From the NCBI GenBank assembly GCA_010093705.1, contig MU006091.1, forward strand, positions 672,702-736,701: a stretch of DNA of 64,000 nucleotides, read 5' to 3'. The translations under genes were made by a program, and so were the position numbers. The number at the start of each line of letters is the position of its first letter. Within the stretch, counting starts at the first letter, position 1. Shown one piece after another: positions 37,968 to 62,467 of this stretch. The notes under the pieces are model-generated. The model was not told the DNA's origin. It did no database searches and saw nothing but the letters and a program-made list of their open reading frames with translations. Source of the DNA: Patellaria atrata CBS 101060 (lineage: Eukaryota; Ascomycota; Dothideomycetes; Patellariales; Patellariaceae).

Positions 37968-39470
37968 ATGGCAGCAAGCCAATTCCCTAGGTCGTGTCGC
38001 TCTGTGCCTGCGTTGTCCCGCTCCATTCTCTTACATGCGACCTCCCGTCGTAGTTTGTATTCACCGAGTGGAGCTCCTCCGAAATGGCGACCATCCTCCG
38101 CATTGGACGAGTTAGTGGACTCAATGCTTTTGTTCTCCAGTACATTGATTGACCATGCCGTAGATGGGTCCAGCGAGAGGCAAGGCCAATAAGTCTTCGC
38201 CAATTGACATTCTTTGGTAGAACGCTCACGGAATCCCGCCTGCTAAGCTCCGCGAACTATGTACGGACTGAACTTCCAACTCGGTAAGCGGTAGTGACAG
38301 GCAGCTATTGCACGCATTCCCTCTGATTGAAAGTCAGGATAGCTCACCGCTTGCGAGATATGCAAACTCTGCCCTACATCGTCGTCTCGAATTCCCATCT
38401 CTCGCATGTGTACGAGCTCTACTATAAAGCCTTCGAAAAGCTTCGACGTGTACCGGAAATCAGGACAATCGATGATAATGATAGATATTGCACTGTTGTA
38501 CAAGACACACTAAGAGAACATCTTACGGTTATCCCACAACTCGCAATGGGTGTCCTCGAGATTCAAGGATTAATGAAACCCGAAGACACGGACAAGTTTA
38601 TGAACACAATGCTGCGATCTGTATGTTGCGTATGAGCAAAATCTCGTAAAGCATCACTAACAGTCCATCACTCTGCAGCGCATATCCCGCAGGACAATCG
38701 CAGAGCAACACCTCGCTCTTACGGAGACATACCACTCACCTTGGCATTTCCCCGATGCAAAGGTGCAAGTGGACGCAAATTCAGATTTTGTTGGCGAGAT
38801 ATTCCTACGTTGCAGCGCGAAGGAGATCGTCGAGAAATGTGCAACGGCAACTCAAGAATTGGTAAGAAAAGCATATGGCTCTGACACGCCTGTACCGGAA
38901 ATTAAGATCCAAGGACACCTTGATGCCACATTCCCGTATATCGTGAGCCACTTAGAGTATATCGTGAGTGAATTGTTACGCAATTCATTCCAGGCAGTCA
39001 TTGAACATAATCATAAACGGCCCGAGCCACCTCCTATCGATGTACTGATCTGCGAAACGGCTCAACACGTCATTATAAGGATATCAGATGAAGGAGGAGG
39101 TGTTCCTCCAGAGATCTTACCATACCTTTGGTCTTTCAGTAAAGGTCCAAGGAGGCAACTACGGCTTGAGAACCTTAACAGGGTTCCAAGGATGGCTGCT
39201 ACAATTCAAGATCTGAAAATTGGACCGAGGTCTTCTGACTGGAAAACTACCGGAAACGGCGACAGTTCCCTCAGTTCTCTAACAGCTAGGTCTCCAGATC
39301 TACGTCTAGGTATTGGACTACCAATGAGCAGAATATATGCTGAGTACTGGGCTGGAAATCTCGAGGTTCACAGTTTGGAAGGCTACGGGGTAGATGCATT
39401 CCTGCAAATTTCAAAATTGGGGAACAAGAACGAGACCCTTACAACTCGTGCAAGTATGGATGCGGTATGA
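37968..39470 (+). CDS. mitochondrial PDHK/BCKDHK-family protein kinase
   Basis: Exons 37968-38110, 38164-38283, 38338-38620 and 38679-39470 give 445 residues. The N-terminus is basic and Ser-rich (RSILLHATSRRSLYSPSG), a mitochondrial presequence. The helical regulatory domain reads WVQREARPISLRQLTFFGR and AHRLRDMQTLPYIVVSNSHL. The GHKL ATPase part has the N box ELLRNSFQAVIEHN, G1 box ISDEGGGVP and G2 box LGIGLPMSRIYAEYW. These kinases phosphorylate Ser on the E1alpha subunit of pyruvate or branched-chain ketoacid dehydrogenase and switch the complex off. A Ser-rich insert of about 45 residues (PRSSDWKTTGNGDSS) separates the G1 and G2 boxes, larger than in animal enzymes. I cannot decide between Pkp1, Pkp2 and BCKDK from sequence alone. 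Confidence 0.92.
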
Positions 39471-39712: not shown

Positions 39713-41824
39713 ATGGCTAACGAATGCTCGGTAAGCACCCGTATTTCCCCTATCTGATCTCTCTATAATAAATAACTAATACGCCTCGCCGACGTAGACT
39801 GCAAGCGAGAGGCTACAAAACTTATCGCTTACTCTTAGTGGGGTATCAATCCCAATTCGAAAGTCACATATAGATGTCTACATCCCTCAGTTTCGTTCTT
39901 ATCCCAATAAGTTAAATGGCGAAGCTGCTTGGGATATTGTTGGTATCAGTACCGTCTGGAAGGGATTGAAAGCAGCGCAAGCTGAAGAGATCTTATTCTG
40001 GGAAGAGACGTTTAAGAAAACAGTGGAAAACTGCGTCTTGGAATGCCTTCTTGAAAAATGGAGAGATGATGAAGAACGTAAAGGTAACTGTACGTCGCAC
40101 CTTGCTCGGCACACCTCTGGAACCTCTGGATCTATTATATTCTCGTTATCCTTCCTGGTTGTACTCTACTAACAATATATGTGGTAGGTGGTGTTTCAAA
40201 TCCGTATATTAAGTTCCACGAATTTTTGAACTCGGTCGCAATTCTATCATTCGCAATCGATACGAACACTATAATCTCCCGAATGGTTGAACACTGGGAC
40301 CAGAATGGTAGGCAGCACATATTCTTTTCGACGACCGAGGACTTTCACCGCACACTTGTTAGCTTTCTCAATACACGGGAATGCTTTATTCCGTTTCAGG
40401 AAGGTAATCCTAGAGTGAGTGTTCGGGTATCTACAGAATGCGTCAATGGCACAAAGCTTAAAATCCATGGGCAACTCCTGTGGGTCCCTCCCTCAATTCA
40501 GTATGACAATCCGGTCCACAGCGTTTCCAGGGAGCAGAAGTACTATTTGGCACCGCGACTGGCGGAAACTCCTATCGACTCGTCCTGTGCCAAACTACCT
40601 ACGAGGGTTGAACATGTCCTGCAATGTGGAATCATGACATTCGTCTGGGACGCAGAAAAGCAGGCGTTTCGGGGTACTCTGTCTCCGGATGCTGAAACAT
40701 CCTCATATGTCAATGTTAGATCGACAATGACTACGTTTTTCTCCCAAGAGGTCCATTATGAACGAGAGATACGTTCCAAAGTTGCTCTTCTATTAGCGGC
40801 CCGGTCCGCTCCGTGTCAAATTCAAACGCACCATCGCCCACAGACGTGGGAGTCTTGGCAAAAATGGATGGTAGCTCATTCTCATTCTCAGTCACCTGGA
40901 CCTCAGGCTCAATCATTACAACCCGATACTAAACCAATAATTCTAACGAAATCTGGACAATTACTGTCCAACTTGACGTACTCTCAAGCATTATCACCAT
41001 GCTTCGATGGTAAACCACTCCGTAAGCAAGCGTACTCTCAGTGCCCCGAAATCCCATATTCGGAAGTCTTATGCAAGGAAATCTCACTCCCTGAAATCCA
41101 ATCGCCGATTCTTCAATTTCACGTACTACTTGAGGATGCACCTGCCACCTCAAAGTCTGTGCATATCAGCGAAAGCAACTCATCTAAGTCAGCGGGAAAG
41201 AGGCCTGTGTCAAGCTTCTCTAATCCACACAGAGACGCTACTCCAGACTATCCAGCAGACGATGAGGGCTCTAGCGCCTCAAGTTCATCTGTTCTACACG
41301 AGCCCAGATGTTCACGGTCGATCTCGAATCAATCAGCTGCATCATGCTTGAAACGTGTTGACTCTTGTCACAATGAAGTGAGCGATGCTGAATGGGAGGA
41401 GTGCATGGATAACTTTATCTCAACGCTCGATTTTTCAAACGAAACATCCACCTCAGTGTCCGTTGAGTTAGTAAAGTCATTCATAAGCGCCTTTGCCGAA
41501 GATCATGCCAAAAAGGACATGGTCAGACAGATGGAAAACTTCTCCACTATCGCAAAAAGACGGCTAAGCTCAATGGATGGTCTGTGTCTGTATCTGTCCG
41601 CCGGTAGTGACACTGGACTTGACGAAGTTCAGCGGCAAATGCAGGCATATTACGAGAATCTACCATCGAGGCCATCGGCGCACAGGTTCGACAGTTCGGA
41701 AGTGCATGCGTTTGAGCGTATATTCTTAGAAGCTCCCGATTCTGATGATGAATCGAGCGATTGGGACGTTAGCTGGGCTGAATATGGATTGGAGCATATC
41801 GAGGATATCGCCCTTTGGCAGTAA
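39713..41824 (+). CDS. orphan protein of 646 residues
   Basis: Exons 39713-39730, 39798-40083 and 40188-41824 close in phase, with an 18-base first coding exon (MANECS). The N-terminal 330 residues look globular (HIDVYIPQFRSYPNKLNGEA; AAWDIVGISTVWKGLKAAQA; FHEFLNSVAILSFAIDTNT). The middle is Ser/Pro-rich and probably disordered. The C-terminal 120 residues are acidic and helical, with paired Trp near the end (SDWDVSWAEYGLEHIED). I recognise no domain, signal peptide or membrane segment. Correct splice phases and an uninterrupted 545-codon last exon argue for a real gene. Codon use looks like its neighbours. Possibly lineage-restricted. Confidence 0.7.
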
Positions 41825-50270: not shown

Positions 50271-51395
50271 CTAATCGCTCAAGTCGGGATTCGCGACGAA
50301 TAACCGAACTCCACTCATGGTCATGGTCCTGTCATCCACACTGCCGCGACGTCTCAGCTCATCGGTAGACTTCTTCTCTTTCTCCGGGTCTTCCATGACG
50401 CGTATTGGCATGTTGCCTAGACCTCCAAAGCTATTCTCTCCTTCACCTGAAGAAACGCTGCCGGTGCTAAGGCCCGTATTTGTCGTAGCAAAGTAGTCAG
50501 GATTCGATGAGGCAGACTGGTAATCACCAGGTACAGGCGTCTCGTTGGGATCTACTCCTTCGGGAACAGTGTAGATCACTTGAGTTTGTTGTTCTGGGGG
50601 TGTAGAGTCCGTCGAGAACCTACCAGATAGATCGGTTTGGGTGTGCGATTGCATAGTGACTCTCCTGCCGCTGCCCAGGGAGCTTCTTCCACTCCCAGTC
50701 CTTTGATGATACAATCCCGTGTTGCTATCTTCATCGGAGTCATTCTCGTCGACTTCACTGGCGCTCAAACGCATGGGTACAGCGTTGCCGCTCAGATTTG
50801 CTCCGTAGAGTTGTCCACTGGTCCTGACATTTCCGTGATGTCGTATCTTGCTCCTAACACCACTCACTACCCCACTGCTTGAAGTGCTTGTCCTGGGTTG
50901 TGCGCCACCCACAACTTCGCGGTTCGCACGCATCTTTGCGGCGCGTTGTTGTGCTAGTATTCCCGGGTCTTCGTGTTGGGCGCGATCGCACCAGACGGTG
51001 GCCTTTTGCCTGCGCATGAGGGCGACGTAGGATGAGCCGGTTGTGGTATTGGTAGAGCGTGAGGAACCGGAACGACGAAGCCCATTATCAGAGCGCGCCG
51101 GACCTGTTGACGCCGTCGAGGCAGTCGCGTTGGAGAGGGTGCGACGATTCATCGTGTTTTGGGTGTAGATTTGCATGTTATTTGGTGGGGGTTGAGGGGA
51201 GTAGGTGGAGGGAGAATAGTTTGCTCCTGCGGCGGGAAACACGCTAGAGGAGGATGAACGCGTATGTCTGTGGGCACTGAGTTGTTGCTGGACGTCGGGA
51301 ATGAGGTTTGCTCCTTCTAATGTAACTGATCCCGAGGGGAGAGGCTTTCTGTGAGGGTGGAAAGCCCTCGTCCCCATGGTGGTGGACATGATCAT
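50271..51395 (-). CDS. Ser/Thr-rich conserved fungal protein (unknown function)
   Basis: One exon of 374 codons starts MIMSTTMGTRAF. The protein is mostly disordered, rich in Ser, Thr, Gly and Asn. One compact segment of about 45 residues (about 120-165) stands out: SSYVALMRRQKATVWCDRAQ, followed by EDPGILAQQRAAKMRAN. I believe that short block recurs in uncharacterised Pezizomycotina proteins, but cannot name a family. The middle has an acidic SEVDENDSDEDSN stretch. The C-terminus has SFGGLGNMPIRVMEDPEKEK and GVRLFVANPDLSD, also likely conserved. There is no signal peptide or membrane helix. Many Ser/Pro sites suggest phospho-regulation, which is inference. MSTTMG at the second or third ATG is an equally good start. 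Confidence 0.72.
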   Translation of the reverse strand: MIMSTTMGTRAFHPHRKPLPSGSVTLEGANLIPDVQQQLSAHRHTRSSSSSVFPAAGANYSPSTYSPQPPPNNMQIYTQNTMNRRTLSNATASTASTGPARSDNGLRRSGSSRSTNTTTGSSYVALMRRQKATVWCDRAQHEDPGILAQQRAAKMRANREVVGGAQPRTSTSSSGVVSGVRSKIRHHGNVRTSGQLYGANLSGNAVPMRLSASEVDENDSDEDSNTGLYHQRTGSGRSSLGSGRRVTMQSHTQTDLSGRFSTDSTPPEQQTQVIYTVPEGVDPNETPVPGDYQSASSNPDYFATTNTGLSTGSVSSGEGENSFGGLGNMPIRVMEDPEKEKKSTDELRRRGSVDDRTMTMSGVRLFVANPDLSD

Positions 51396-51857
51396 TGCAC
51401 AATGATTGAGTCAACGGATCAAAGTCCGACGTGACACCTGTCTGGTGCGCTTTCACGTGGAAGTCGAAAGTGACTTGGAGGTGGGTGGGTTTTTTGGTCG
51501 CTAGGGCGGATGGTTTCTACGGTCGACGGAACAGCTGATCTCTCGTTCAACTCTTCACACAGGCGCGGGATGTCTTCCAATGCGGATTCGAGATGACGTT
51601 AAAGCGACAAAGACTGGTGAACTGGATTCCCTAGCGAAGTTATACAGCCGAAAGATAGGTCGACAATGTCCTCTGTGACTCTGTGAGAGTATTTGAATTG
51701 ACTGAATCTCTCGTCAGCACGCTTGTCGACCAGCCAATGCGATGATAACGCGACGATGGTCCGATTGTATCATCGCATACATTCCGTACCTTTCGATGTA
51801 ACAGCAACTGAAACTAAATTGTCAAACCTTTTTACGAGTAGGAACAGAAGGGTACGG

Positions 51858-55045: not shown

Positions 55046-57301
55046 GGGTTCTTATTACACTGGAAGTGTGGATCTTCCGCTTTATATGGGGTCTGAGGAT
55101 CTTGTGAAGTGGTCTATTTTGGCTGAGACTGTGAAACAAGGATTGTCAAGACGACAAATAGAGGGGTGCCCACCTGAGAGATGGAGTCTCAGGAGAGCTT
55201 TGAATGTGTATGCTGGCAACAGCTATAGGAAGATAATGCAAGTATTTCGGGGAGCGTTATGGAGGGCGAGCCGAGAGGGGTATGAAGAAAGTTTTTCGTG
55301 GAGTAATGGCGACTATCACGAGGTCCCCCGAACTGACAGATTCCGATACCCTTACAAAGTATCGGGTCTAGCAGACGAGGAAATCTGCTTAGTTGTAATA
55401 ATGTTACAAAATTGGTTGTTAAGGAGACAAGTAGCGGGGGTTATCTGGGCCTGATGTCATAGCTATTAGCGAACAATTCAGGAGAAAGATGCCATTTTGT
55501 GTCTAAGGCGATCTTGAGGTATGTCATTGACTTACTTAGCAGGCTTGGATAGGAATCGAAGTAGGTCGTCTCGGAGCATAGAGTAAAACGAAGTTGACTA
55601 GCGGGCAAACAGCTCTGCTGGGTGTCTAAACCCTAGCAGTATGATTTGTTCTGTATGAACGTGGTTTTGCCAGTTTGTCAGAGTCTCTTGAAGAGCACAA
55701 GAGTATTCACAGGAGCTGTAGACGTATTCGTGAGGTGAGTTTTCACTCTTGTATATGTCGAAGAATCAAAATGCGGTGGACTGAACTTTTTGCCTACACG
55801 AATCGTCAGCACCTGTAATAACCAAAGTTCTGTTCAACCTCGTAAGGTGTAATAGAATGAAGACTGGACAAGGAATAAGCTGACATACTTGGTGGTGGCT
55901 TTTGCAGATAATCTAAAGGAATTTGAAGGTAGAATTGAATGTTTGTGTGGAAAGTTTTTTTGTGTGGGCTCTTGGTGTTTTTCAATGAATCGGTCAATCG
56001 GTGGTAAGGTATGCGCATCATACCCCAGTTATTTTGCTTAACGCCACCCCCCTCGTATATGCTTTACCATATTGCGCATAGTCCTAGAATTCGCTCGTTT
56101 CTAGGTGAAGCTGGACTCTCAGAATTGATATTTCTATTTCCCATATGTAGTCTGCCGTTATTACTTGAATGTACAGGCGCTTAAAATATCCGACCACATC
56201 GATTGTCCTCTAGCAGAGCATCGTACTCTTACAGACGGTCAGATCTCACAAAAAAAATCGGGACAGACAAAGGCCGCTGGTGGGCGTGTGAGCGCCCTTG
56301 AAGAGCCCAAAGATCTCTCCCGTCAGGGGCGTGCTTAGGGAGTACAGACACCTGTGACAAGGTAGATCAAGCGCACAGGTACTGTACAGTTACTACGGGA
56401 CAGTGCACATAAAGCGTTCGAGATACTTGAAAGCGGTGAACGAGATATAATGTGCGATTGGGCATCGAGCTGGAACTCGGCCCACAGATTCCCACATACA
56501 GCAATATATTTCTTCTCGACGTGGGGTGGCGGGACGCTGACAACCAACATTTTTAACGTCAACGCTCAAACTCCACCTGACCATTTTCCCAGAGCATTCT
56601 CTTGGGATGCCGATTCTTCAGCTTCTTAGAACGTCATAGCGGCAATATGCTGACTGTTTTGACACACACATTGGAGGGCTCAAAGGAGCTTGTGAAACTT
56701 AGATTCAGCATTCGATCCTCCGCCGAATGAGAAAAAGTCCTAGTTTAAAGTAATCGCCGATTACGAGATCCTGACGGTGAGTGACAACCCTAAATTATAT
56801 GCAGATGTGCTCGAGGTGCATATTCCATTTTGACAAAAGCGCGCAGCTGGGATTCCTGACAACGTTTCTGAATCTATTCCGCTATCATATCTATTTACTT
56901 TTGTTATCGTCTCTCACCCCAACTCCAATCCTTGTATCCATAGAGTTCGTAAGGGATGATGAATATGTGCAAGTCGTTATATCTCTGGTCTTCGGATAGT
57001 CGGACACTCCTTTCTCCCGTAAGTTCACCGGCCAAGATCCAGCTCAGAGAGGATTTGTTACTCGGCAATCTGGCGGTGCACTACGAACTATCCGGATGGT
57101 GACAAATTAAGAGTATTAAAATTTAGTCGTTCCTGAAACCAATGAACCAAAATATCCACCCAAAAGATATACCGTTTCGTGGGGAAATATTATTCCCAAG
57201 CTCATGTGTACCGTGACCCGCCAAAACCACTAGAAGGCTCCAATTGAACTCCGTCCGTTTCACAGTCCATGCGTCTCCACATGTCTTCATCTTGCATAGA
57301 T
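55046..57301. other. gene-poor interval; SPE2 leader at left
   Basis: The left part is the SPE2 promoter and leader, including short upstream ORFs (listed separately). A plus-strand frame of 136 codons (ATG at 55044) opposes the SPE2 start and is not supported. From 55500 to 57300 only short frames with no family resemblance are seen. A GTACTGTACAGTTAC motif lies at 56379-56393. Confidence 0.4.
55419..55495 (-). promoter_or_regulatory. two short upstream ORFs in the possible SPE2 leader
   Basis: On the SPE2 strand, ATG at 55495 opens a five-codon frame (MASFS, stop) and ATG at 55460 a thirteen-codon frame (MTSGPDNPRYLSP, stop). They lie 374-450 bases before the SPE2 start. Small upstream ORFs repress AdoMetDC translation in mammals and plants in response to polyamines. 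Whether the transcript extends this far here is not known. Confidence 0.35.
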
Positions 57302-59056
57302 CTATGATCCATCTAATGGCTTGAATCTCACTAAATGCGCATCGATCGCGTGTTGGTAGAATTCCCTGAGATCGACCACCAGCTCATCCGGGGCATCAAA
57401 CGCTGGACGTCTTGCTTCATGTTGATGTCTCTTGATCCATTGTAGATTCTGAATACTTGATGCCCATGTTGGTGGTGTTGTACTCACTCGACTACCAGTT
57501 CCGACAGGTCGAAAATGACTTATACCCAGAGGCACGTGGCTGTAGGTGTCCCAACACTCAGCCCCAACTTCTCGATTTGCGGCTCGTAACCAACGTAAAC
57601 CAGCTTCCGGTCCAGGTAGCCAATGCATCATCGTCCAATTTAGAATCTCCGTTGCTGACCAAGTATAGGTGTTTGAAGTATATTGTATTGCATCGAGCAT
57701 AGAAGCCAAAAGCCCAATAGGGGAATCGCATAATGAATAAGCTCTTGTCTGGGGCCGTTGGCCGTATTGGGAGCCAAGACACTCGTCCGAAGATTGTTCA
57801 TAATTATGGTTCATCTGGAATTCGGACGGCACATAACCAAAACTAAGGGGTTGAAGGCGTGCTTTGGTCAACCGTGCAGCATGATACTTCATGAATGCTA
57901 GCGGGCTTCTCTTTACTTTTGGTGGAGGTAGTTCAGGCGATGTGGTATGCACCGCCAAGCAGTTCTCGGGGTGTTGTAGTGCAATCATTCGAGAAATCTT
58001 GAATCCCCTGAAGATAGTTAGCCTTATCAGCATTAAAAGGGTGTGTATTCCTACCAGCCAGCTCCGTGTACAACGTACTCATTGTAACCTAATCGACGCA
58101 TCAGAGCATCAAATATATCAGCGGTAGCCTTGAGACCGAATCCTTCGTGCGGACTTGAATCACTGAATCCAAAACCAGGTATGCTGGGGCATACTACATG
58201 GAATCCAAGTGTAGGTCCACTGCCCATCGATGGCTCATTGATAGGTTCTGCTAGCTTGTTTATGACCTTCGATACTTCCGTAAAGCTCCCTGGCCATCCG
58301 TGGCAAAATAGGAGAGGTATAGAGTTGGGACGCGAACTTCGCTTATGGACGAAATGCACGCGTAGTGGAGGATGTGGTGAAGATTGGAGGGTAAAATCGT
58401 TCAAAGTGATCGTCGTCCGATATTGTGGGAGTGTCTCGTTGAACATGGACTCCTGTGCCCTCCAGTCGTATTCTTCTAGCCTGGTACCGGTTAGCGGAAG
58501 ATCTAAGGGTACGCTGATGTAGCAATCTATGATATTCACGATTCCGTAATGTCGCATAGTGGGAATTGCGCAAGGTCAACCGCGTGTCTCTCAAGACAAT
58601 AGCCGAATTAACGAGACCACTTGTCTCCGCGCATACAGCGCAAGGACACCAAGATAGTTGTCTGGGAGGACATCACCCGTTCAGATGCTCATGATCTCGG
58701 ACGCCACTAGTTTCTACAGACATCGCTCGAACATGGATATTGCGCGTTTCGGCTTCTTATCCAGAAGTCCAGGGTATAGGTAGGGGAACTGCTCACCAAT
58801 AATCAAGCAATGGCTCCAATGTCGTCTTCGGAGTCCCATAATCCCACTTGCGGTGCTCGGGCAATAACAACTCGCGTGGTAATCGCGTCAATTCTAATTT
58901 CCTCTTTGTTAAGTCCAAATAACGTGCAGATACCTAAAAGCTCAGTAAGTTCGCGTTCTCAACTAATCAGTCCGTGTTGTAGAAGCTTACATGCATGTTA
59001 TAGGGTTGAATTGCTATTTCACCATCCCCATTTTCGCCAGCGATGTTTGTCGCCAT
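57302..59056 (-). CDS. epoxide-hydrolase-like protein, probably catalytically inactive
   Basis: Exons 59056-58991, 58933-58797, 58480-58055 and 58007-57302 close in phase to 444 residues. The N-terminal EHN domain is complete across the splice joins: PYNMHVSARYLDLTKRKLE, RKWDYGTPKTTLEPLLDYW and LEEYDWRAQESMF. The alpha/beta-hydrolase core has the oxyanion HGWPGSF and VCPSIPGFGFSD motifs of microsomal-type epoxide hydrolases. The nucleophile elbow, normally GGDWG, reads GAGWG: Asp is replaced by Gly. The catalytic His, normally in GGHFA, aligns with Arg in HEARRPAFDAP. The reading frame is otherwise intact, so this looks like a pseudoenzyme or a rebuilt hydrolase rather than a decayed gene. 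Intron 2 is 316 nt, far longer than other introns here. Not in a visible biosynthetic cluster. Confidence 0.88.
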
Positions 59057-59519
59057 AGCGCAACTTCGGTCCCATAGGAATTGATCATCAGGGGAGAAAG
59101 TAGCATATCGAAAGTATGGTACAGATACACGAAATTAAATCAGACCCTCAAATCTCAGTAAGCGCAATGAGAGAACAGGTGACGCGACAATGATCGACAG
59201 AATATCGGAGAATGCTATTAAAAGGAGTACGTATGCTGCCTCAGGAACATGCAGTATAAAATTTGCCATCAGAGTAACTGTGGCCAATGATAGGGATGGA
59301 AGGGGGGATGAGGCTGTGCAGAGTGGCGTTCTGCCGATTGTCACCGCTTCAAAGATCGCCAACAGGACGATCGAGACTGCAAAGCAAACATGACAGGAAC
59401 ACCAATGACAAAACCGCTACCACTTCTCAACACTATTCTGGAACCAGGATAAAGTTTAGACTCCTTGTAGTGCTATCCGTACCTGGTTTTGCCTTAAGGG
59501 AACCCCTCGCTTACAGACA
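59057..59519. other. intergenic between two minus-strand genes
   Basis: These 463 bp hold the 3' flank of HID1 and the promoter of the epoxide-hydrolase-like gene. Short frames only; no repeat seen. Confidence 0.45.
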
Positions 59520-62467
59520 TTAAACGTCCCTAACTGTAGTTTGACCACCGTTGCCACCAGTGGGTGTACTGCTTTGCGGTGTCGTGGTCCCTCGTCTGAG
59601 ATTCAAGCTTCGGATACCTTGGACTAGGTTACTACCGACTGCATCCACTGCGCCTCTGGGATTGACCAATGAAGGGGTAGCCGCATTTGTTTCCTGCACG
59701 CGGAAGAGCTTTATGGCGGTGTTGTTCCAGACGCCAGTAGTTCTATTCGATAGTTCGCTCGCGAATATGAATCCCCAAAGTAATGATTCGTACCATCCTA
59801 AGGATAAGGGTGACCATTCGAAAAGGTGAACCCTTATAGAAGACGGCTCGATGCCACGTATTTGGGCACTCTTTATGATAGCTAGATTTGCGGCTGTGCT
59901 CGCGGAACTCTCAGTGGATGGAATTTGGGGAGATAGCTCTGATATCAAGGTCAGAATTGTATGAAGTGGCAATTCCGGTAACCACGATTCGATCTGCATC
60001 AATGTTAGCGTTATGATGGAGAGGTTGATTTGTAAACGCCAATACCCATTCACTTGTCGGCGTAAATTGACCATTAGTAGTAAGGACAGGTGTCGATACA
60101 CTGTGCATGCTAGTCATACTGTTTTGTCTAGAAAATGAGGGCTGTCCTATGGGCATCTTCCCTCGAGCTTTCTCCGACATCCCCCGAAGTTGTAATGGAA
60201 GAGCCTCATCGGTGGTTGACGAGATCGACGGAGTTCTAGATGTATTACTGGACTGTGCTGGAGCAGATGCGGGAACGGGTGTGGTGATGCCATCATTATC
60301 GGAATCATCATCATCGTCACCTATTGTAAACTCGTTATGCTCTTCGGGAACGTTACTTAGTGTTGGTGCTCGTGTCGTTGTCGGACTTCTGATACTATCC
60401 ATCGAATCCCCCCTGGTAGGGCTGCGCAACGAGTCCTCTTCGCCACGTTCCTTACGTGCTCGGTTCAAGTTCTCGATTTCTTTTTGACCGCTCTCTAATG
60501 TAAATTCTCGCAACGCCTCGAACCGTTTCCTCGATCGAACGATGGTGTAAATAAGATTGGGATTTTCTACTGATAATTAGAGGGACCGTCTACAATTGCA
60601 AGATGCGTACTTACTGCTATACTGATGCTCAATAATAGCATTTATAGCTTCTAGAAGGGAGTGTAAAAGAGTATGATTACTCTCATTGGCAAATAAGAAG
60701 CTGGGAGAAGACATGGAGGTAAATAATTGGACTAATTTTGAGCTTGTGGCTCGGCCAAGGTTTTGGATATACGCGGCAATATTGTTTAGGATGGCTAGTA
60801 ATGCTGGATATATCGCATCCAACTTTCCTTTGCTACCGGTAAGGAGAGTATAGATCGACTGTATTTAGGTTAACAACGTCGCATCTAATACACTGAAGTG
60901 TAGGTTAATATACTTACTGTAATGAGGTAATCGGCATAAGTACCGTGGAAGTTGGGTATTCTGATGCTAGCTGGTAAGGTTTCCTGGCCCTCAAACGTCT
61001 TGCTAAGGCTCTTTCCAAAGTTCGGCTCTACACTTAGTGTTTGCAGGACGAAGATACACATTCTAATTACCCCCTGTTTCGAAGCATCGTTCTTCTGATC
61101 AATCGCGTAGAACAAGAGGAGAATCACAAAGTCATGTGATCGATCTGTATCGACAATAAAGGAGCGAAATCTCTTATTGCACTGTAATACTTCCCAGAAA
61201 AGCATCATCATTTCGGGAGCCCAAGTCAATGATTTTTGACTACCCGGGAGGTATGAGTTGGTAGCTTGCATCTGTATAATGTCAATTAACTCATGCAATT
61301 TTATAGACCTGAGATATCTTACGGGCTGATTTAGTATTCTTGTCATACCATCAACAAGGAACTGAAAGTCTTGTGGTCTGTGTAGACGTCCTAGAAAGTG
61401 TCTATAATAGTTCTTCGACGGCACTCCATTGCCTGTTTCAGGAATAGGATAGAGAATAACAACAAGCAGAAACTGAAGGCAGTATGTAACTAGCATTTGT
61501 TTCGGGTCCTTAAAGACAACATGATCGTAGGGAACACGCCACGATGCTGGGTTGTATTTCAGAGTCGTGTTAAGAAGAGAACATAAAACTGACAAAACAA
61601 GCTGTCTGTCAGAGCATGTCGTAATATAGGTAATAGCCTTGACTCCGTGGACTGGGAGCACATCTGTGAGGGTTAGACCCCGGTCAAGTATTGGTTTGAA
61701 ATACTTACTGGATGTCATATACATAGATTTGCTCACCACTGCAAGGAGAAGTCGCAGTATTTCTGTCCGATTGTTTTCAAACTCTTTGGAAGACGCAACG
61801 GGCGTATTACAACCTACACCACTCTGCCATATTGCATAAGAGACCTTGTTCTTCCCCGGAAGAACCTTTGGTAAAGTAAAGTCTGAGAAGAATAACAGGT
61901 CGATTAATGTGTCAATCAACTCCTCTGCAAGCGGTTTCACCTCTTCAAATTCCGGAACTTCCTCTTTAGGTGTATCGTCAGGATTTGACTCATCAAATAG
62001 AACCTCCGTTTTTCTAATTTGACCTTTCCTGTTTCGCTTTCTACGTTTTGCCCAAAAGAACTTGTCTTCCCATTGTTCTAGATATTCTGCCTCGTAGAGG
62101 AAGGGGAGAAGACGCGTAAGTATCCGTATACAGTTCAGAGCATCTCTTTCTGGAGCAATCTCTGGGTCTGGGAATGAGGGGTGATTTCGCAGAATGCATA
62201 GCCTCGAGGTGACGGCGAGAATTAAGGTCTCAAGGTTACCCAAAGAGTTGTCCCTGGTACGGCGTATGTCTGCCGGTGAAAATAGAGAGAAGACATCCTC
62301 AGCAGACTCAGGGAGCTCCCAGAACTGTACAAATGAGCATTTACCCTACTAAAGAATTGATTCCAGCTTACACCTGTCCAATATGGATCGTCTGCAGCAA
62401 TTTCTTGCGGCTCAGAAAGGCGGAAAATGCCCTGTTTAAAAACAAGTTTTGAATCAGAAGCACCCAT
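59520..62467 (-). CDS. HID1: Hid1/dymeclin-family Golgi sorting protein
   Basis: Exons 62467-62372, 62324-60918, 60858-60615, 60566-60046 and 59993-59520 close in phase to 913 residues. The protein starts MGASDSKLVFKQGIFRLSE. Gly2 with Ser near position 6 is a good N-myristoylation signal, as in animal HID1. Family blocks follow: ADDPYWTG|FWELPESAEDVFSLF, LGNLETLILAVTSRLCILRN, YLEQWEDKFFWAKR and GSKGKLDAIYPALLAILNNI. The C-terminal WIESWLPELPLHTILTLI closes it. A disordered, Ser/Asp-rich stretch of about 170 residues (DDDDDSDNDG) separates the last two parts. HID1 in animals is a trans-Golgi peripheral membrane protein needed for dense-core vesicle sorting; the yeast relative is Ecm30. It is divergent from SSL2 across 286 bp. 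Confidence 0.94.

Follow-up and report, generated by a model that had tools for sequence, protein, structure and literature searches.

The gene at positions 57302..59056 on the minus strand of the window (the whole 64,000-nucleotide stretch of Patellaria atrata CBS 101060 DNA analysed here) encodes an EHN-family protein of the alpha/beta-hydrolase fold in which all five positions of the epoxide hydrolase catalytic apparatus align with other residues. The sequence suggests that the gene is maintained and that its product is a pseudoenzyme, without hydrolytic activity, of the EHN (microsomal or Aspergillus niger type) epoxide hydrolase family, a reading to which we give a probability of about 0.58. 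Pseudoenzymes are known in many families. If orthologues share these changes, the EHN family would have a non-enzymatic branch, for which automated naming as epoxide hydrolase would be wrong.

Gene structure, domains and relatives

The spliced model comprises four exons on the minus strand with a closed frame of 1335 nt, including the stop, that specifies 444 amino acids. Exon 1 (58991..59056; M1-H22) starts with the ATG at 59056 and ends at the donor GTAAGC. Exon 2 (58797..58933) carries the first half of the EHN domain, with a match to EHN positions 6-52 over the exon, and exon 3 (58055..58480) carries its second half together with the hydrolase core as far as the nucleophile elbow. Exon 4 (57302..58007), which closes with the stop TAG, contains the cap and the C-terminal part of the hydrolase fold. 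The three introns (intron 1, 58934..58990, 57 nt; intron 2, 58481..58796, 316 nt; intron 3, 58008..58054, 47 nt) are all GT-AG, with a CTTAC box 16 nt from the 3' end in intron 1 and a CTAAC box 14 nt from the 3' end in introns 2 and 3. An earlier note made from the letters of this DNA had stated that all splice phases close, and the model agrees with it. Most of the introns read in the region are likewise short and GT-AG. Intron 2 is long: the introns otherwise read in this gene and in both paralogues measure 47-75 nt. The idea that it is an inserted repeat was rejected, as a search of its own genome returned intron 2 alone, a single copy.

The predicted protein matches the EHN domain (Pfam PF06441) with 116.3 bits against a curated cut-off of 22.8, which places it in the EHN family by descent. 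A match to Abhydrolase_1 (67.7 bits, above its cut-off), together with the HGWP motif, identifies the hydrolase core of this family. The oxyanion-loop motif HGWPG (58288..58302, minus strand, HGWP starting at 58302) is retained according to both the alignment and the motif scan. The EHN domain, the oxyanion motif and the sequence signature of the core fold are preserved, as previously claimed. NCBIfam gave haloalkane dehalogenase matches that were weak and far below their cut-offs.

Structure models were made for two single-exon fragments, each read in one frame, and both model as the expected fold. The exon 4 fragment, with a pLDDT of 74.3, was the one used for structure searches. At E <= 0.001 Foldseek returned 13 matches, all of them EHN-type enzyme chains also matched by phmmer; in the VIA Z ranking, alpha/beta hydrolases of other kinds score almost as high (9.5 vs 11.5). 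Exon 4 is therefore predicted by its model to form the cap and C-terminal part of the EHN-family fold. Among solved structures the best match is the EHN-type epoxide hydrolase of Streptomyces carzinostaticus (5f4z; E 1.1e-38, residues 17-323), whose elbow reads GGD where the window protein has GAG. The match to the Aspergillus niger enzyme 1qo7 has a phmmer E of 4.2e-27, and the exon 4 fragment aligns to its residues 194-396. The A. niger epoxide hydrolase (1qo7, 3g0i, 3g02) and AuEH2 of Aspergillus usamii (6ix4) have the same EHN domain, hydrolase core and helical cap as the window protein. Compared to these enzymes, however, the window protein appears to have replaced the Asp, the acid, the His and both tyrosines, and it carries insertions before RPQT and in the acid loop.

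A search of the P. atrata genome (28.3 Mb, 46 contigs) identified two further EHN genes beside the window gene, both with the Asp and the His. One, C2 (L001, 1492-2836, plus strand), encodes 412 aa; the other, C24, lies on L004 (307-1728, minus strand). Both are catalytically intact by sequence, and neither shares an intron position with the window gene when compared by eye. C2 is the nearest row to the window protein in the tree (SH-aLRT 92, with a long-branch warning from the program) and is 44% identical to it in the first half. Unlike the window protein, it has GGDWG, FPRE, GGHFAA and both tyrosines intact. The end branches of the paralogues exceed one change per column, a divergence too great for dN/dS. 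In one scan of prokaryotes at least 536 stretches were found to encode a relative, with a segment identity of at most 36% among the best 80. Relatives were also present in 454 plasmid records, all below 60% identity, and one scan of viral contigs found no close relatives.

Replacement of the catalytic residues

The alignment consisted of the window protein, the two EHN paralogues and 79 prokaryotic relatives, taken from the best 80 of the at least 536 confirmed (L055, a partial frame, was dropped); one of them is archaeal by its record title. Its stability was checked in six MAFFT settings. The catalytic residues of the A. niger epoxide hydrolase, which we take to be D192, D348, H374, Y251 and Y314, were carried through the phmmer alignment to 1qo7 in order to assign the catalytic columns. 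These columns correspond to the Asp-His-Asp/Glu triad, usually accompanied by two tyrosines, that is described for epoxide hydrolases in PMC8244358.

The nucleophile Asp is present in 79/79 prokaryotic relatives and in both paralogues. In the window protein its position is occupied by Gly209 (GGC, 58057..58059, minus strand) in all six settings, so that GGDWG has become GAGWG, just as the earlier note had read it. The catalytic His of the GGHFAA column, equally invariant (79/79 and both paralogues), aligns with Arg409 (AGA, 57410..57412, minus strand), again in six of six settings and in agreement with the residue named before. The replacements extend beyond these two residues to the third member of the triad and both tyrosines. 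The charge-relay acid, Glu or Asp in 76/79 relatives (two have Gln and one Ala), is read as Arg383 (CGA, 57488..57490, minus strand) in all six settings, with a 5-residue insertion adjoining. The two epoxide-holding tyrosines, each found in 78/79 relatives, are read as Leu287 (CTT, 57776..57778, minus strand; six of six settings) and Arg351 (CGA, 57584..57586, minus strand; five settings, the sixth placing Leu350 there). The placements of Arg383, Leu287 and Arg351 are less certain than those of Gly209 and Arg409, because of the insertion in the acid loop and because the Tyr regions are poorly conserved and the stretch before RPQT is hard to align. A nearby Tyr291 might conceivably be a shifted partner. 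By sequence, then, the catalytic motifs are lost, as is characteristic of a pseudoenzyme.

Two of the bacterial relatives, L075 and L087, have Gln in the acid column but keep the Asp, the His and both tyrosines. A third EHN relative, L057, is on a contig titled Enterococcus innesii and has Ala in this column and a long branch (1.55); it may represent contamination or a real oddity.

Wrong splicing, an assembly error or a mis-joined exon 4 could in principle conceal a true active site. Two observations are in keeping with such an artefact: the unusual length of intron 2, and the drop in identity to prokaryotic relatives at the border of exons 3 and 4, from 39-49% (28 segments matching exon 3) to 21-27% (40 segments matching exon 4). 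Nevertheless, a six-frame pattern scan of 56000-60500 revealed nothing resembling GGDWG or GGHF on the gene strand that a different splicing could exploit, although such a scan would miss motifs interrupted by an intron. The introns have GT-AG borders and branch-like boxes, exon 4 still carries the PQT, Y, L, DSP, W and P motifs of the family and its model matches EHN-family structures, and the elbow change itself sits in exon 3, the rest of which is highly conserved. We therefore consider an artefact very improbable. Apart from HGWP, the minus-strand output of the six-frame scan was GGHRS; on the plus strand it picked up GGHHP, GACLG and GHLP. The idea that another splicing brings back GGDWG or GGHFAA was rejected for want of a usable string in this interval, and so was a local frameshift behind EARRPAF, where the two other frames, inspected by eye and by the scan, have no GGHF.

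Unequal divergence and maintenance of the frame

The two parts of the window protein differ in their conservation. We selected 81 columns that were at least 90% identical among the other 81 rows and split them at residue 206 of the window protein. It keeps 38/41 of these columns up to the divide and 18/40 after it (Fisher p = 2.8e-6); the corresponding numbers kept are 36 and 37 for C2, and 27 and 32 for C24. Ahead of the elbow, the EHN domain and the core match the catalytically intact C2 in their degree of conservation, or nearly so. Some of the conserved positions lost after the divide belong to the former active-site surroundings (GGD, Y...Q.T, R.Y and GGHFA.E). Others are at S312, M313, A316, T320, N322 and H338 in the numbering of the window protein; these columns are not known to contact the active site, so that the loss reaches beyond it. 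The stretch PQT..Y.L.DSP.G of the second half is kept.

End branches on a fixed tree give a similar picture. The ratio of the window protein to C2 is 1.17 before the divide and 2.28 beyond it, and that to C24 is 0.50 and 1.82, respectively. All three branches of this genome are long compared to the medians for end branches in the two halves, 0.30 and 0.19. By this measure the cap and C-terminal half of the predicted protein has diverged about twice as fast as that of C2. The acceleration, which is limited to the second half, fits a changed function, but it also fits relaxed constraint. That a conserved first half is followed by a rapidly evolving second one provides a testable hint as to which part is still in use.

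These data bear directly on the possibility that the gene is dying, with catalytic constraint lost, the second half drifting and an open frame that simply precedes visible decay. The 2.28-fold rate relative to C2 and the loss of 22 of 40 conserved columns in the second half are what such a gene might display. Conversely, a gene without function would be expected to lose both halves alike, and the first half retains nearly all of its conserved columns with a rate close to that of C2. The number of base changes that separate the present codons from a catalytic codon is also relevant. The minimum is one for Gly209, two for Arg383, three for Arg409, two for Leu287 and three for Arg351, and because of these distances a recent loss of catalysis seems unlikely, with the caveat that the firm placements are those of Gly209 and Arg409. 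The three changes between the Arg409 codon and His speak against a dying gene.

Neutral decay was simulated from the coding sequence of C2, with 400 runs per distance and without indels. The frame was still open in 28/400 runs at 0.05 substitutions per site and in 2/400 at 0.1, and in 0/400 at each of 0.2, 0.3 and 0.5. An open frame this diverged is thus not expected after long neutral decay. The rapid loss of simulated frames and the intact splice signals argue against an old pseudogene; selection that ended recently would still be compatible with them.

Codon usage is more favourable to the idea of a dying gene. With a codon table built from four neighbouring open frames, each taken whole, synonymous codon choice in the window gene does no better than chance (z 0.25 in exons 1-3 and -0.42 in exon 4), compared to z values of 3.06 for C2 and 1.91 for C24. 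Codon bias therefore failed as proof of coding, as the window gene has none. The own-frame coding score of exon 4 is the weakest among the pieces tested (-0.022 vs 0.108 and 0.101), but its own frame is still the best of its six. These weak codon signals fit low expression, but also weak constraint. Taking both sides together, we regard a dying gene as doubtful, and a maintained pseudoenzyme as the better account of the open frame.

Possible roles and genomic neighbourhood

Hydrolysis by the family mechanism is not expected of the window protein, because the glycine at the GAGWG elbow has no side chain, and the ester intermediate presumably could not form. As a maintained pseudoenzyme the protein would still fold, with the cleft between core and cap persisting, and would bind rather than cut. 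Its target would be either a small ligand, in a cleft remodelled towards a more basic character, or another protein. It might serve as a sensor, carrier or regulator, with regulator or sensor the likeliest of these. A partner could possibly be an intact EHN paralogue, although naming C2 for this part is a guess. The suggestion made before, that selection has favoured a non-hydrolytic role, therefore holds in part: loss of the family's hydrolytic mechanism and a frame that looks maintained agree with it, but selection for any specific new role goes beyond the evidence.

Some precedents exist. ABHD5 (CGI-58) belongs to another subfamily and has no EHN domain. It is an alpha/beta-hydrolase-family protein that, having neither the nucleophile nor hydrolytic activity, acts as a regulator and activates a lipase (PMC5314347). 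It resembles the window protein in the missing nucleophile, which is the one loss named in the passages of PMC5314347 relied on here; the likeness is one of analogy and not of functional homology. In trypanosomes a dead AdoMetDC paralogue is described as activating its live partner (PMC5201418). Cfl2 of Burkholderia cenocepacia has an epoxide hydrolase fold and has been proposed as a possible pseudoenzyme; unlike the window protein it keeps the epoxide hydrolase motifs, and the portions of PMC8244358 consulted do not name it as EHN-type. Among the papers listed in our literature searches there was no EHN-type pseudoenzyme, none with triad and both tyrosines gone, and no non-catalytic EHN-family receptor.

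Arginine is read at the positions of the acid, of the His and of one Tyr, which suggests a more specific idea, namely that the old active site is an arginine-lined, anion-binding pocket and that the protein serves inside the cell as a receptor for, or carrier of, an acidic metabolite. We consider this highly unlikely. Were it true, the ligand might be, for example, an oxidised fatty acid or a phosphorylated compound, and a detoxifying enzyme would have turned into a receptor or carrier.

Alternatively, the protein could be a catalyst with a different chemistry, in which residues that have migrated or are newly acquired, such as the arginines, put the old cleft to use in a reaction on something other than an epoxide. 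Arginine occupies three of the five catalytic positions in five of the six alignments, the oxyanion motif HGWPG is retained, and pseudoenzymes with migrated catalytic residues are described in PMC10211241. However, the GAGWG elbow offers no nucleophile of any kind, and the arginines at the acid and second Tyr positions are uncertainly placed. The neighbourhood likewise lends this idea no help, as no biosynthetic-cluster gene was recognised among the 8 frames scanned in 38-64 kb. We judge such a catalyst unlikely.

These 8 were drawn from the 27 frames in this interval that reach 130 aa or more. By Pfam they include Hid1 (two frames), an XPB-type helicase, an S-adenosylmethionine decarboxylase, an AMP-binding enzyme and a kinase-like HATPase_c protein, and most of the Pfam-matched frames appear to be housekeeping genes. 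The best solved relative of the helicase is RAD25, which we take to be SSL2 of yeast. The two frames with no Pfam match are long, at 40088-41824 (plus strand, 578 aa) and 50271-51410 (minus strand, 379 aa). The frame at 38661-39470 (plus strand) has, in addition to its HATPase_c domain, a sub-threshold match to branched-chain dehydrogenase kinase.
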